This document shows, piece after piece, positions 37,233-41,179 of a stretch of DNA of 45,722 bases (position 1 is the first letter of the stretch; each line of letters begins with the position of its first letter). The stretch is from Leeuwenhoekiella sp. (lineage in GTDB: Bacteria > Bacteroidota > Bacteroidia > Flavobacteriales > Flavobacteriaceae). The position numbers and the translations under genes are program-made. The DNA lies in contig DRGP01000068.1 in assembly GCA_011050015.1 (NCBI GenBank), forward strand, positions 1-45,722, given 5' to 3'. Below the pieces are notes generated by a model, which saw only the letters and a program-made list of their open reading frames with translations, was not told the origin of the DNA and did not search any database.

Positions 37233-37811
37233 ATGAAAACATCAACCTCTTTATTCTTGGCATTTTTATCGCTCACAATCGTTAGCTGTACTGTAGATGT
37301 GCCTGAAATCGATACCGTACCGCCAGCATTTTCTTTCCAGATTCAGGGAGATGGCTTCAGGCATACTTTTGAGAGCGATGATGACCTCACCTCCCTACGT
37401 TTAAATCTAAAGAAAGGAGCCGTATATCAATTTACCTATATAGGAAGTGATGCCGGTGGACTTCGTGACCTGCTCTGGAATTATCAGGATGACTTGGTGA
37501 GCGATGCTCAAATAGAAATTTCCGACGAACTCCCAATGGGTTGGTACCAGACCACACGCTATGAGCACGATTTCGAGTTCTATCCCTTTGTAGATGGAAT
37601 CAGGTTTCAAGGGGATATTGCAAATCCTCTTTCGGGCTCCGCGATATCCGGCACATTTTCATTCAACAGTTATTCTCAGGATAGTTACCCCAATACCTTC
37701 GATTTTATTGCACGGGACTTCGGTGGCTTGCGTGATGAGCCGAATATTGTCATCAGCCAACTATCCATTTTGCTCGGTGACCATCCTACAGAACTCGTTC
37801 CCATGGAATAA
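37233..37811 (+). CDS. lipoprotein of unknown family, paralogue 1
   Basis: A 192-residue predicted lipoprotein with lipobox IVSC (Cys19). I do not recognise the family. The mature part starts TVDVPEIDTVPPAFSFQIQGD and has a stretch of alternating hydrophobic residues typical of a beta-sandwich. It ends with FIARDFGGLRDEPN and GDHPTELVP. It shares four blocks with the next gene: the N-terminal VP-x-IDTVPP-x-FSFQIQGD-x-F-x-HTF, a central DAGGL-x-x-L-x-W, F-x-ARDFGG, and the closing DHPTE-x-VP. The block order is the same, so the two are tandem duplicates. No catalytic motif is evident. A surface-exposed beta-rich adhesion or binding role is only a guess. Confidence 0.8.
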   Translation: MKTSTSLFLAFLSLTIVSCTVDVPEIDTVPPAFSFQIQGDGFRHTFESDDDLTSLRLNLKKGAVYQFTYIGSDAGGLRDLLWNYQDDLVSDAQIEISDELPMGWYQTTRYEHDFEFYPFVDGIRFQGDIANPLSGSAISGTFSFNSYSQDSYPNTFDFIARDFGGLRDEPNIVISQLSILLGDHPTELVPME

Positions 37812-37865: not shown

Positions 37866-38411
37866 ATGAAATCCACAACGTTTATTTTATTTACGCTTGC
37901 TTTACTAGTGGCCACTGGTTGCTCGGTAGAGGTACCGAATATTGATACGGTTCCGCCAAAATTCTCCTTTCAGATACAGGGCGATCGCTTTAATCACACA
38001 TTTACCGAAGAAGATGATTTTGAAGCTATTGAATTACACCTGCGGGACGGCTATGAATATAATTTTACATTTTCCGGAGGCGATGCGGGCGGTTTAAAGC
38101 ATTTAAGCTGGCAATGGCTAAATGGCTATGGAGCTAGCGTAAGCCTAAATGTTCCCCTTGAAAATATAACCGATGGATGGGTGGCAAGAAATGGTGGATA
38201 TGTATGGTATACAGGTACTATAGATGATCCCCGTTCCGGCGGAATTATTACTGGTAAGTTCACCCCACACGAGGAATATCGTGGAAACACCATTGAATTC
38301 AGCTTTTTTGCAAGGGATTTTGGGGGACACAACGAAACCGAAAATGCTGTTGACAAATACCTACAGGTCGTTATCGCCGATCACCCTACCGAAATTGTAC
38401 CGGCCAACTGA
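37866..38411 (+). CDS. lipoprotein of unknown family, paralogue 2
   Basis: A 181-residue predicted lipoprotein with lipobox ATGC (Cys19), 54 bp after paralogue 1. The mature start, SVEVPNIDTVPPKFSFQIQG, is nearly the same as in paralogue 1, then HTFTEEDDFEAIEL, GGDAGGLKHLSWQW, FFARDFGGHNETEN and ADHPTEIVP. The middle (residues about 85-135) differs in length and sequence, so the duplication is old and the variable part may set binding specificity. The strongest constraint is on the block DAGGL and on ARDFGG. The function is unknown. Another secreted gene follows 33 bp later, so three exported proteins likely form one operon. Confidence 0.8.
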   Translation: MKSTTFILFTLALLVATGCSVEVPNIDTVPPKFSFQIQGDRFNHTFTEEDDFEAIELHLRDGYEYNFTFSGGDAGGLKHLSWQWLNGYGASVSLNVPLENITDGWVARNGGYVWYTGTIDDPRSGGIITGKFTPHEEYRGNTIEFSFFARDFGGHNETENAVDKYLQVVIADHPTEIVPAN

Positions 38412-38444: not shown

Positions 38445-39146
38445 ATGAAAACAAATATCCTCAATACGGCTTTTTTTCTCTTTTCCCTATTGACTTTCAC
38501 CCCAACGATTTTTGCACAGAACAATTGTTCAAAATTCTATCCCACCAAAATAGGAAAAACCCTGATCATACACCAGTTTGATAAGCGCGACAAACTTGCT
38601 ACAATTACCTCTTATACCGTAAAAGATGTAGCTCAAGACGAAAATGGAACAATTCTCACCATTGCGATGCGCTTGATAGATGGGAAAGACGAAGAAGAGC
38701 TCACAAATGTAGAGTTTAAAGCCATCTGCACCGGTAATACCACTAAAATTGACCCAGAATCACTACTGGCACCCGGTATTTTTGATCAGTATAAAAACAT
38801 GGACTATTCCATAACCGGAAATGGATTGAGCATTCCCAATGAACTGCACGTGGGCGAAAACCTAGCCGATGGTGATGTAACTATGGCTATAGACACCGGC
38901 ATTATGAAAATCAATGCAACTATCCTCATGACCAACAGAAAAGTACAGGCCAAAGAAAAAATTACAGTTCCAGCCGGCATGTTTGATTGCTACAAGATCA
39001 CCAGCACAAATTCTTTTAAAATGGGTATGACCCAGACCAATCTCACTACCCAATGGATTGCAGAAGGCATTGGTATGGTGCAGGAAGAAACAAGAAAACC
39101 CAACGGCAGATTGGTAAGCCGCAGCATACTTCATCACATGGAGTAA
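38445..39146 (+). CDS. secreted TapB/DUF3108-like protein
   Basis: A 233-residue exported protein with a signal peptide ending near IFAQ (residues 22-25). The mature part starts NNCSKFYPTKIGKTL and contains a repetitive beta-strand pattern with E-K-I-T-V-P-A-G-M-F-D-C-Y-K-I, TTQWIAEGIGMVQEE and KPNGRLVSRSIL. The block V-P-A-G-x-F-x-x-Y-K-I followed by W-x-A-x-G-x-G-x-V is typical of the DUF3108/TapB-like beta-barrel proteins of Bacteroidota. No enzymatic motif is seen. Its position after the lipoprotein pair suggests co-expression. Family call moderate; function unknown. Confidence 0.65.
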   Translation: MKTNILNTAFFLFSLLTFTPTIFAQNNCSKFYPTKIGKTLIIHQFDKRDKLATITSYTVKDVAQDENGTILTIAMRLIDGKDEEELTNVEFKAICTGNTTKIDPESLLAPGIFDQYKNMDYSITGNGLSIPNELHVGENLADGDVTMAIDTGIMKINATILMTNRKVQAKEKITVPAGMFDCYKITSTNSFKMGMTQTNLTTQWIAEGIGMVQEETRKPNGRLVSRSILHHME

Positions 39147-39167
39147 GTAAAAAATGAATTCTAAAAA

Positions 39168-39331
39168 CCTGAGCTCGATGTAAGAAAAATGCGTCAGATC
39201 GATTTCTGAAAGAATTTTGTATCGAGATCAGCATTTTTCGGTTGAAAATAGTCTTCCTCGATACGTTTTTTTGCGAAAATCACTCGAAATGACCATCTTC
39301 AAAACTCTAAAATTTTACATCGAACTCAGGT
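39168..39331. repeat. MITE-like nested inverted-repeat element
   Basis: ACCTGAGCTCGATGTAA (39168-39184) and TTACATCGAACTCAGGT (39315-39331) are 17-base terminal inverted repeats with one mismatch. Inside, GAAAAATGC (39185-39193) pairs with GCATTTTTC (39232-39240), and GTATCGAG (39220-39227) pairs with CTCGATAC (39258-39265). The element is about 164 bp, has no coding frame, and sits between a plus-strand gene and the end of a minus-strand operon. Small non-autonomous transposable element or structured repeat are both possible. Confidence 0.65.
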
Positions 39332-39396
39332 TAAAAAGCCTTAACTACTAAATTAAAAGGTGCAAGGATTATTTTGAACTTCTAATTAACTATCGT

Positions 39397-39421
39397 ACTT
39401 CGGGGTGACTTGCCCCGAAGT
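39397..39421. repeat. REP-like GC-rich hairpin
   Basis: Perfect 9-bp inverted repeat ACTTCGGGG / CCCCGAAGT with loop TGACTTG, 7 bp after the stop of the minus-strand operon. No T-run follows. Its layout matches the 461-481 hairpin (Y-TCGGG arms, short A/C/G/T loop), suggesting a genome-wide palindromic repeat. Confidence 0.6.
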
Positions 39422-39427
39422 ATTTAA

Positions 39428-41179
39428 TTAATCACCGTCCAGTTTCGGCTCCAGCCATAAATAACCCATGCACAACACAAAAACAGCAAAAAACCACCAA
39501 AAACTGACTGGTTCAAGGCTTATTTTCCGCGAAGTGGAAGCTTCTTCTGAATTAAAAAAGCGCTTGTTCTCTTGTATTGTCCCGTAAGCCGAAACTGCTT
39601 TCCAGTGCGTGGCATCGGTGACAAAATAATTGAATACTTTCGTGGTATCTTGAGTCAACCTTAGTTGGTTCCAGCCTTTTTTTCGCGGGTACGTCCTTCC
39701 CTCCCACTTTTCCGGTAAGTCCACATATTGCTTTAGGGAAACATTATTCCCATTTGCGGTTGTTACCACGGGAGACACGTCGCTTGTAGAAAGGCTAAAA
39801 CGAAAGGGTTCATTGAGATAAGGCATCCCATTCTGGGTTTCCCATGATGTTCCAGTAGCTTTTCTTTTACCCAATGGCTCCAGTAATTCCGACCATAATT
39901 GGTTATACACAGCTTTCTTTCCATTTAAAAGTAGCTCATAGGTTTTCTCGAGTACCGTGCTGCCCACGCGCCCTTTTCCCATTCGTTTGTAAGCCGAAAT
40001 AATTTGGGAATCTGTTTCATGAACCGTTTCCAGCCCTACCGATTTTTCAAAAACAAACGGACTTTTGGGCAGCGCTACGCGCGGAAATGGATTCAGCCGA
40101 ATACTGGTATTTCGATCCGTGTTAAATTTCAGCGAAGCCAAATTTTCTGATCCCTGAAAAAAGGAAACATCCGCCTGAACAAAAACACCCAAACCATCAT
40201 CAATAATGGCCATTTTTAACCCATTTATGACCGAATTTGGCAGGTTTTTCAGACTTTGTGAATCGATGATAAGCAGGTCAAAAGAATCGAGAGCTGCCTG
40301 CGATAACCCGGAAAGTGGAACTTTTACTCGGTTAAAATATTCAAATTTAAAGCGCCCTTTGGTAAGCTTACTTCGTATAAGCACTTTATGCCCCATTTCC
40401 GCAAGGTAATCCTTGAGATATTTAGTTTCAAACGCAGGAAAATCATTAAGGATCAATACGTTGAACACTTGCCGCGCTTGCACTTCCACCGGTAACGGGT
40501 CAGTTGTAAGTACTTTCCCAAGCGAATCTTTTGCTACCAACTTATACACCAACTTTCCCGTTGCTTTTAATGGAGCACTAATGCGAAAATCTGACTCATT
40601 CTCGGCTAAAGCCACCGAATCTAGCCCAGCTCCGCCGGGATCTTGCAATACAACGCGCGTACCTGGTTTTGGGGAACTATAAAGTCCATCAACGATTAAG
40701 TCCTTCCCAACAACAGATTGATTATCATATTGCCGTTTAATAATACCATGGGGCAATTTTCCGTCCAGATAGTGTGTAGCAACCGATTTTAATTGCCAGA
40801 AATCATAAGTTTTTATTCCATTTCCAATGATAAAAATGTCACTTAGCGAGTCTAGGGCGGTACTTAAATCGGCTCCCGGCTTGTAGTTGACCATAACCAG
40901 TTTTTGCTTTGTATCTTCAAGACTATCCAAGGTGGTTTTAGCATAACCAGATGTGAGCAAAACACCTTTTACCGTATCTTGTTCCTGTCGCAAAGCAGGC
41001 TTGAGGGCGATAAGAACCAAAGCGGCAACCGCAAAAAATGCAGCTACAGCTTTCAGTAGAAAATGCCTCTTTTTACCTGAAAACCAGGCTAAAATTACAA
41101 AAATCAGCCATATTGCAAAACCAGCAATAAGTACCGGCCACAACCAATTCTGGTTTAAAAAAGTGAAATTTTCAATCAT
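39428..41179 (-). CDS. membrane protein with GATase-like domain, last gene of moxR operon
   Basis: A 583-residue protein with two N-terminal helices (about 12-34 and 42-62) and one C-terminal helix (about 559-578), so a large central domain is on one side of the membrane. The centre contains VLILNDFPAFETKYLKDYLAEMG followed by FDLLIIDSQSL and GVFVQADVSFF, a Rossmann-like pattern resembling the inactive glutamine-amidotransferase-like domains of BatA-associated membrane proteins; no catalytic cysteine is seen. Upstream gene overlap is 8 bases. It is part of the MoxR-linked envelope operon. Its function is not known. Confidence 0.78.
   Translation of the reverse strand: MIENFTFLNQNWLWPVLIAGFAIWLIFVILAWFSGKKRHFLLKAVAAFFAVAALVLIALKPALRQEQDTVKGVLLTSGYAKTTLDSLEDTKQKLVMVNYKPGADLSTALDSLSDIFIIGNGIKTYDFWQLKSVATHYLDGKLPHGIIKRQYDNQSVVGKDLIVDGLYSSPKPGTRVVLQDPGGAGLDSVALAENESDFRISAPLKATGKLVYKLVAKDSLGKVLTTDPLPVEVQARQVFNVLILNDFPAFETKYLKDYLAEMGHKVLIRSKLTKGRFKFEYFNRVKVPLSGLSQAALDSFDLLIIDSQSLKNLPNSVINGLKMAIIDDGLGVFVQADVSFFQGSENLASLKFNTDRNTSIRLNPFPRVALPKSPFVFEKSVGLETVHETDSQIISAYKRMGKGRVGSTVLEKTYELLLNGKKAVYNQLWSELLEPLGKRKATGTSWETQNGMPYLNEPFRFSLSTSDVSPVVTTANGNNVSLKQYVDLPEKWEGRTYPRKKGWNQLRLTQDTTKVFNYFVTDATHWKAVSAYGTIQENKRFFNSEEASTSRKISLEPVSFWWFFAVFVLCMGYLWLEPKLDGD

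Follow-up and report, generated by a model that had tools for sequence, protein, structure and literature searches.

A miniature element with IS982-type ends and a core of paired REP-type hairpins in Leeuwenhoekiella and other Flavobacteriaceae

The locus and its element

The window, namely the whole analysed stretch of 45,722 nucleotides from Leeuwenhoekiella sp., harbors a miniature transposable element (MITE) of 165 bp at positions 39167-39331, located within a 281-bp gap between two convergent open reading frames (ORFs), 38445-39146 on the plus strand and 39428-41179 on the minus strand. The initial annotation had described a non-coding element of about 164 bp between convergent transcription units, enclosed by a 17-base terminal inverted repeat with one mismatch. 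The position and the repeat were both borne out, the arms (39166-39183 and 39315-39332) being 18 nt long and 94% complementary, and no ORF of at least 80 codons was found inside the element, but its true left end lies one base further out. The features of the element and its borders are as follows.

39162-39166, no strand: left target-site duplication TAAAA, 5 bp, equal to the right copy at 5 of 5 bases
39167-39331, no strand: whole MITE, 165 bp, delimited by terminal repeats, copies and duplications
39167-39184, plus strand: left IS982-type end (ACCTGAGCTCGATGTAAG), recognized from the inverted repeat and by comparison with the IS end of contig C54
about 39192-39229, plus strand: REP-type hairpin unit 1, CGTC-tagged, its left box eroded in the window copy, recognized from the sequence and from comparison of copies
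39254-39294, minus strand: REP-type hairpin unit 2, inverted, with the minus-strand reading GGTCA-T-TTCGAGTGA ... GTATCGAGG
39313-39331, minus strand: right IS982-type end (TTTTACATCGAACTCAGGT), matching over 19 bases the IS end at the transposase 5' side on contig C31
39332-39336, no strand: right target-site duplication TAAAA, 5 bp, matching the left copy

Two inner inverted repeats had been thought able to fold, and they correspond to the two hairpin units. Folded as single-stranded DNA, the window MITE reaches -26.7 kcal/mol, compared with -16.3 kcal/mol (sd 3.0) in 200 dinucleotide shuffles, none of which was equally stable (0/200; z -3.4). In the window copy, the left box of unit 1 can be read with no fewer than four mismatches. 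An Rfam search of positions 38900-39600 gave no match up to an E value of 1, a terminator scan found none within the MITE, and the only promoter-like match inside it (39284-39313) is at chance level.

Two neighboring features were also noted. A possible terminator, outside the MITE and immediately beyond the 3' end of the minus-strand gene, is formed by a perfect inverted repeat of 10 bp with a 7-nt loop (TACTTCGGGG / CCCCGAAGTA) at 39396-39422, which is absent from the terminator-scan list. The adjacent ORFs 37233-37811 and 37866-38411 encode similar putative lipoproteins that both contain the stretch ...DTVPPxFSFQIQGD..., apparently a tandem duplication.

Copies and target-site duplications

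A search of the own assembly (3.69 Mb, 261 contigs, 81.6% complete) with the window MITE returned 33 matches, 28 of them, including the query, at E <= 1.6e-18. The 27 longer matches other than the query are 73-91% identical to the window MITE and are spread over many contigs, some being cut by contig ends. Matches were also obtained in 23 of the 98 other genomes searched, nearly all of them short pieces, and the two longer ones both lie in the congener G008, so that the element is by no means a single copy devoid of homologues. A 23-mer of the MITE gave no hit in named genomes. One G008 copy (L031) shares its site and its 5-bp duplication with the own copy L019 at 95.9% identity, which indicates that this insertion predates the split of the two species. 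Two own copies at different sites (L007 and L015) are 98.8% identical over 168 nt, and such near-identity makes some of the moves look recent. At the window locus, G008 alone among 12 congeners matched beside the element; it has no MITE there, but its other flank differs, and no clean empty site was found among these 12 congeners. Three own copies near contig ends (L008, L014 and L017 on contigs C176, C91 and C90) have a common right flank, possibly an assembly overlap.

Target-site duplications, which had been suggested as a check, were found in abundance. Ends of the window type are designated T1 hereafter, and 15 of the 23 both-ended T1 copies (22 own copies and one in G008) are flanked by a perfect 5-bp direct repeat, against 0.77 expected, while 18 of the 23 are so flanked when up to one mismatch is allowed (2.95 expected), the expected counts being derived from pairing the flanks of different copies. 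Among lengths from 3 to 9 bp, none but 5 bp gave a comparable excess in the T1 copies. A good 5-bp duplication is lacking in five of the 23, two of which (L014 and L017) are situated close to the end of a contig. Copies truncated at contig borders (L008-L011, L013 and L020) and the fragments L029 and L030 were unpaired or omitted in the duplication and distance analyses.

IS982 ends and the candidate partner

A search of 60 genomes, among them the own one, for the 12-base MITE end showed that IS982 copies of about 1 kb in other genomes bear ACCTGAGTTCGA ends like those of the window MITE. In G013 and G070, elements 1000-1016 bp long with a T1 end on either side encode a protein of about 300 aa, one of the two G070 copies being broken. 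NCBIfam classes the G070 protein as an IS982 transposase (277.6 bits, cut-off 130), and the PF13612 domain is present in the transposases of both genomes. Three IS982 fragments adjoining a T1 end were additionally detected in the congener G006.

The initial annotation had proposed that a partner transposase with similar ends be sought; such IS982 elements do exist in other genomes, but the own genome offers just two ends at contig breaks, the IS interior being missing from the assembly. Contig C54 breaks inside an IS and runs from the end ACCTGAGTTCGACCTAAG into the last transposase codons, matching the G070 transposase at 58% over 26 residues (E 2.4e-4), and contig C31 likewise breaks inside an IS, running from the end ACCTGAGTTCGATGTAAAA into a start that resembles the transposase N-terminus. 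No intact IS982 transposase gene was found in this 81.6%-complete assembly of 261 contigs, PF13612 giving no match. The inner side of the left end reads CTAAG in 14 of the 24 own copies with a readable left end, as in C54, and GTAAG in the window copy; the right end reads TTTTACAT in 13 of 26 own copies.

G070 possesses MITEs of its own, which are 228-231 bp long with T1 ends; one of six (L139) passes a loose hairpin-box test, and L141 and L142 contain single box-like stretches. As a separate observation, G013 carries a 480-bp internally deleted IS982 (L134) 3 kb from a full copy (L135), and the outer flanks of the two look exchanged (CCATA to the left of one and to the right of its counterpart), as recombination between copies would leave them.

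The REP-type hairpin core

The reading as a miniature transposable element is upheld by the terminal inverted repeats, the duplications, the many copies and the IS982 elements with identical ends, and the alternative first offered for it, a multi-hairpin repeat, is compatible with this reading, as the core consists of two REP-type hairpins in inverted arrangement. Both inner repeats are copies, in opposite orientation, of one unit composed of (C/T)GTCA-N-TTCGAGTGA, a variable paired stem and GTATCGAGAA-N'. The exact unit, TTCGAGTGA-N8-30-GTATCGAGA, occurs in 90 of 249 family genomes, the own genome included, and a reversed control pattern matched once over all 249. In these 90 genomes, the unit mostly stands without recognizable IS ends; in the own genome, all 15 exact units lie inside MITE copies.

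Units elsewhere are mostly preceded by (T/C)GTCA and a base N whose partner, N', directly follows GTATCGAGAA. N and N' form a Watson-Crick pair in 148 of 171 distinct units, with about 60 expected as calculated from base counts. Among the 214 units that fall in the 15 commonest five-mers, counted without de-duplication, the tag is TGTCA in 122 and CGTCA in 63. The variable middle, which extends up to the pattern limit of 30 nt, pairs with itself, the mean unbroken stem being 5.0 bp versus 1.7 bp after shuffling (32 units from 30 genomes), with individual stems of 1-11 bp by simple count. Of 130 cases of neighboring units within 150 bp of each other, 104 are inverted (70 of one kind and 34 of the other) and 26 parallel. 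Among the matches listed (at least 118 stretches), the carriers include Tenacibaculum, Polaribacter, Lutibacter, Maribacter, Aquimarina, Winogradskyella and Chryseobacterium, and the exact unit was met in only two viral contigs.

Several unusual occurrences were recorded in passing. Lacinutrix himadriensis has an array of eight exact units in less than 800 bp (L224, 7068-7845), and several inverted hairpin pairs stand in a row in L048 (G025). Single exact units in records labelled Shewanella, Dojkabacteria, Desulfurococcales and Chlorobiota (L247, L259, L279 and L217, respectively) may reflect chance, transfer or contamination.

Forty-six unclustered hairpin pairs, mostly from loci not picked for their ends, were inspected for flanking ends. 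Seven have matching ends (at least 11 of 14 bases) at fixed distances, against 0.95 expected, one of them (L276) having A+T-rich ends unlike those of IS982; the remaining 39 have none and may be eroded or may not be MITEs. In a blind grid over the 46 pairs, the best peak was weak (z 3.3) and fell at 23/34 nt, the difference of 11 nt being that of 31/42.

The same core between other IS982 ends

Two further end types enclose the same core. The T2 end, ACCCGTTGTGCATTTTG, was encountered in Polaribacter, Croceitalea, G018, G279 and others, and the T3 end, ACCCGTTGGGTGCAA, in Lutibacter. In 1.39 Mb of loci outside the own-genome copies, 25 T2 and 6 T3 end pairs were found (140-240 bp apart, with at most four mismatches per T2 end and three per T3 end), and hairpin boxes are present in 21 and 5 of them, respectively; reversed ends and 20 shuffles yielded zero T2 or T3 end pairs in the same 1.39 Mb. 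Among the loci fetched from genomes picked partly for their ends, those without a both-ended pair within these limits are L359, L361, L363-L365, L369-L372, L375, L378, L388 and L392-L397. Hairpin-bearing MITEs of type T1 are present in Aquimarina macrocephali (L213) as well as in two MAGs, one of Aquimarina (L197) and one of the Flavobacteriaceae (L290, with eroded ends), and these three have no 5-bp duplication. A perfect duplication of 7 bp flanks 6 of the 25 T2 MITEs and one of 8 bp flanks 2 of the 25; in the T3 MITEs, duplications of 8 bp (3 of 6) and 9 bp (1 of 6) were observed.

The association was further examined genome by genome in a non-random sample, as G059, G018, G279, G209, G031, G178 and G226 had been chosen partly for ends already seen in them. 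In Croceitalea dokdonensis DOKDO 023 (G226, identical to G301), 12 of 14 exact units are flanked by both T2 ends and one more by a single end; one MITE of G226 recurs without any difference in L194 of that strain. T2 ends accompany all three exact units of G279 and both fetched units of G018 (of 8), and at least one T3 end accompanies all eight fetched units of G059 (identical to G303; 12 exact units in the genome), several of which are cut by contig ends. The corresponding counts are one of four fetched units (of 7) in G209 and, with one end only, one of three fetched units (of 9) in G257.

Candidate partners were identified for both end types. G209 contains two IS982 elements of about 967 bp with T2-like ends (ACCCGTTGTGCATTTAG), and G059, which also holds T3 MITEs, contains one IS982 of about 1 kb with T3-like ends (ACCCGTTGGGTGTAA), the transposases of both being over the cut-off; the ends of the single T2-like MITE of G209 are eroded. 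Identity between the T2 and T3 transposases is 59%, and that of either with the T1 type is 27-32%. Over the 13 entries of the IS982 search, five passed the cut-off (G059 being counted twice, as G303), three gave IS982-like matches below it and without the ends of the MITE (G018, the Polaribacter G299 and the Lutibacter HS1-25 genome G300), and five gave no match (the Croceitalea entry G301, G031, G302, G304 and G305). Croceitalea dokdonensis has the most T2 MITEs, 12 of them both-ended, yet zero IS982 match, and it may have lost its IS982 partner. At L353 (G059) and L345 (G018), additional IS982-like elements were noticed whose ends are of the type AATGCGAATTAAGGGTTAAAAAT / ATGCGAATCAAGGGTT.

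Spacing between ends and hairpins

The distances from the outer ends to the hairpin boxes recur in all three types. One side measures 31-32 nt and the opposite side 42-45 nt in 20 of 23 T1, 14 of 18 T2 and 5 of 5 T3 rows, counted where both boxes are readable at no more than two mismatches. Unreadable rows number 5 of 28 (T1), 7 of 25 (T2) and 1 of 6 (T3), and the window copy, with its eroded left box, is among them; alternative pairings of L197 and L290 are likewise unreadable and were excluded from the T1 count. The own T1 copies share their spacing by descent, and it is the agreement between end types that matters. The same end-to-box distances are kept in two MITEs with a longer core, L213 (223 bp) and L301 (220 bp), and no hairpin boxes were seen at those distances in the IS982 element ends compared. 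The two hairpins stand 26 nt apart in five T2/T3 pairs, 27-28 nt apart in the own T1 copies and 27 nt apart in L290. The longer stem is on the 31-nt side in the five T2/T3 pairs and on the 43-nt side in the T1-like L290. The agreement in spacing over three end types speaks for either shared descent or a shared structural demand, by one of which the three MITE types would be connected.

Interpretation and alternative explanations

The window element is most probably a non-autonomous MITE of the Flavobacteriaceae, which would be moved in trans by an IS982-family DDE transposase recognizing the ACCTGAGTTCGA ends, with the hairpin pair constituting the body of the IS982 MITEs. What can be read from the sequences themselves comprises the ends, the duplications, the copy number, the IS982 elements with such ends, the covariation within the hairpins and the recurring spacing. 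In the proposed mechanism, the IS982 transposase most likely binds the MITE ends, and insertion into A+T-rich intergenic gaps with a 5-bp stagger would generate the 5-bp duplication; the core delivered in this way would be the inverted hairpin pair, which stretches of about 31 nt and about 43 nt separate from the two ends. The hairpins may benefit the element, either by providing a harmless structure that makes insertion in gaps between genes tolerable or by aiding excision and hence transposition. The idea of the hairpin pair as the travelling body of IS982 MITEs draws its support from the occurrence of the same core, at near-equal distances, between two other end types in other genera. It is weakened by the MITE-rich Croceitalea without an IS982 match and by the inconstant side of the longer stem.

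How the core came to lie between three end types may be explained in two ways. Within the MITE reading, unrelated IS982 ends could each have captured a local hairpin pair, so that the spacing would reflect a demand of the IS982 ends rather than descent. This is a genuine possibility, albeit one regarded with some doubt; the T1 transposases are just 27-32% identical to those of T2 and T3, the stems differ between the types and the longer stem does not keep to one side, all of which suit separate capture, but an inter-hairpin space of 26-28 nt is more regular than end binding alone would demand.

Alternatively, IS982 might be the missing mover of the REP-type doublets of the Flavobacteriaceae, and the doublets might be the bodies, in part eroded, of a single ancient MITE lineage; its ends would have tracked diverging IS982 subgroups or been exchanged between them, with the core and its distances under selection. 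This proposal is speculative and, like the first, rather less likely than not, and the Croceitalea genome and the inconstant longer stem tell against it as they do against the main explanation. If true, it would reverse the usual MITE pattern, in which the ends are kept and the core drifts. A MITE lineage that conserved its core and changed its ends, with the distances recurring, could thereby outlast any single transposase, which would be unusual.

It is improbable that the element is instead a REPIN, in which the hairpin pair would be the mobile unit, a RAYT-type Y1 transposase would move the pair and the outer inverted repeats would be incidental. The core is indeed an inverted pair of tagged hairpins, the 39 unclustered pairs without matching ends show no IS982 ends, and the own genome has Y1 transposase genes (three matches, two over the cut-off), but duplications and copy boundaries track the IS982 ends, and all of the own exact units are confined to MITE copies. 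A Y1/RAYT partner was sought and rejected: a whole hairpin unit is present at none of the three own Y1 loci, and no association emerged over 40 genomes, a Y1 match being present in 9 of 20 unit-rich genomes versus 10 of 20 without the exact unit. The 11 unit-rich genomes devoid of Y1 even include those with 58, 48 and 47 units.

A conserved regulatory or terminator structure, whose copies would stem from coincident function and not from transposition, is the least credible explanation: it would suit the hairpins and the intergenic position (as judged from open frames rather than annotation, no open frame of at least 100 codons runs across any of the 19 own copies examined), but the scan gives no terminator inside the element, many copies have exact ends and 5-bp duplications and lie between open frames that are convergent in some cases and parallel or divergent in others, and the duplications refute it as the sole explanation. 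A secondary role in termination is possible.

Comparison with known systems

An IS982-derived MITE of the Bacteroidota is already known, namely MITECca01 of Cardinium, which derives from ISCca4 (PMC9769881). It is characterized there as an element of about 240 bp with IS982 ends and no transposase gene, present in 169 mostly intergenic copies, features that resemble those of the window MITE. The authors present it as having arisen from a single IS in one particular lineage, and the section on it mentions no REP-type hairpin pair, whereas the window MITE shares only its ends with the IS and has as its interior a hairpin unit found across a bacterial family.

The hairpins themselves resemble the CGTC/TGTC-tagged REPs, which, according to the portion of the source consulted, are distributed over five phyla, mostly as inverted dimers and apparently without a dedicated transposase, the Bacteroidetes and G. 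forsetii being named (PMC3733652). The (C/T)GTC tag at one hairpin end and the predominance of inverted dimers are common to both. Published stems are 8-9 bp with loops of 4-5 nt, whereas the hairpins described here vary widely and fall outside this definition, and the published G. forsetii REP family may correspond to them (PMC3733652). Likewise, the inverted REP doublet as a miniature repeat recalls the REPIN/RAYT systems (PMC3116915, PMC6006769), from which the present hairpin pair differs in lying between IS982 ends and in showing no Y1 association. The consulted passages of PMC12306157 contain nothing on IS982 or MITEs, and no report of REP hairpins inside IS982 MITEs was found among the titles and opening abstract lines of the open-access literature.

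Within that literature, each part is known separately, and it is the combination of a REP-type hairpin pair with an IS982 MITE that appears to be new. IS982 may accordingly be regarded as a candidate mover of the transposase-less CGTC-tagged REPs, one that is made testable by hairpin pairs forming the MITE body between three IS982 end types, each with a duplication length of its own.
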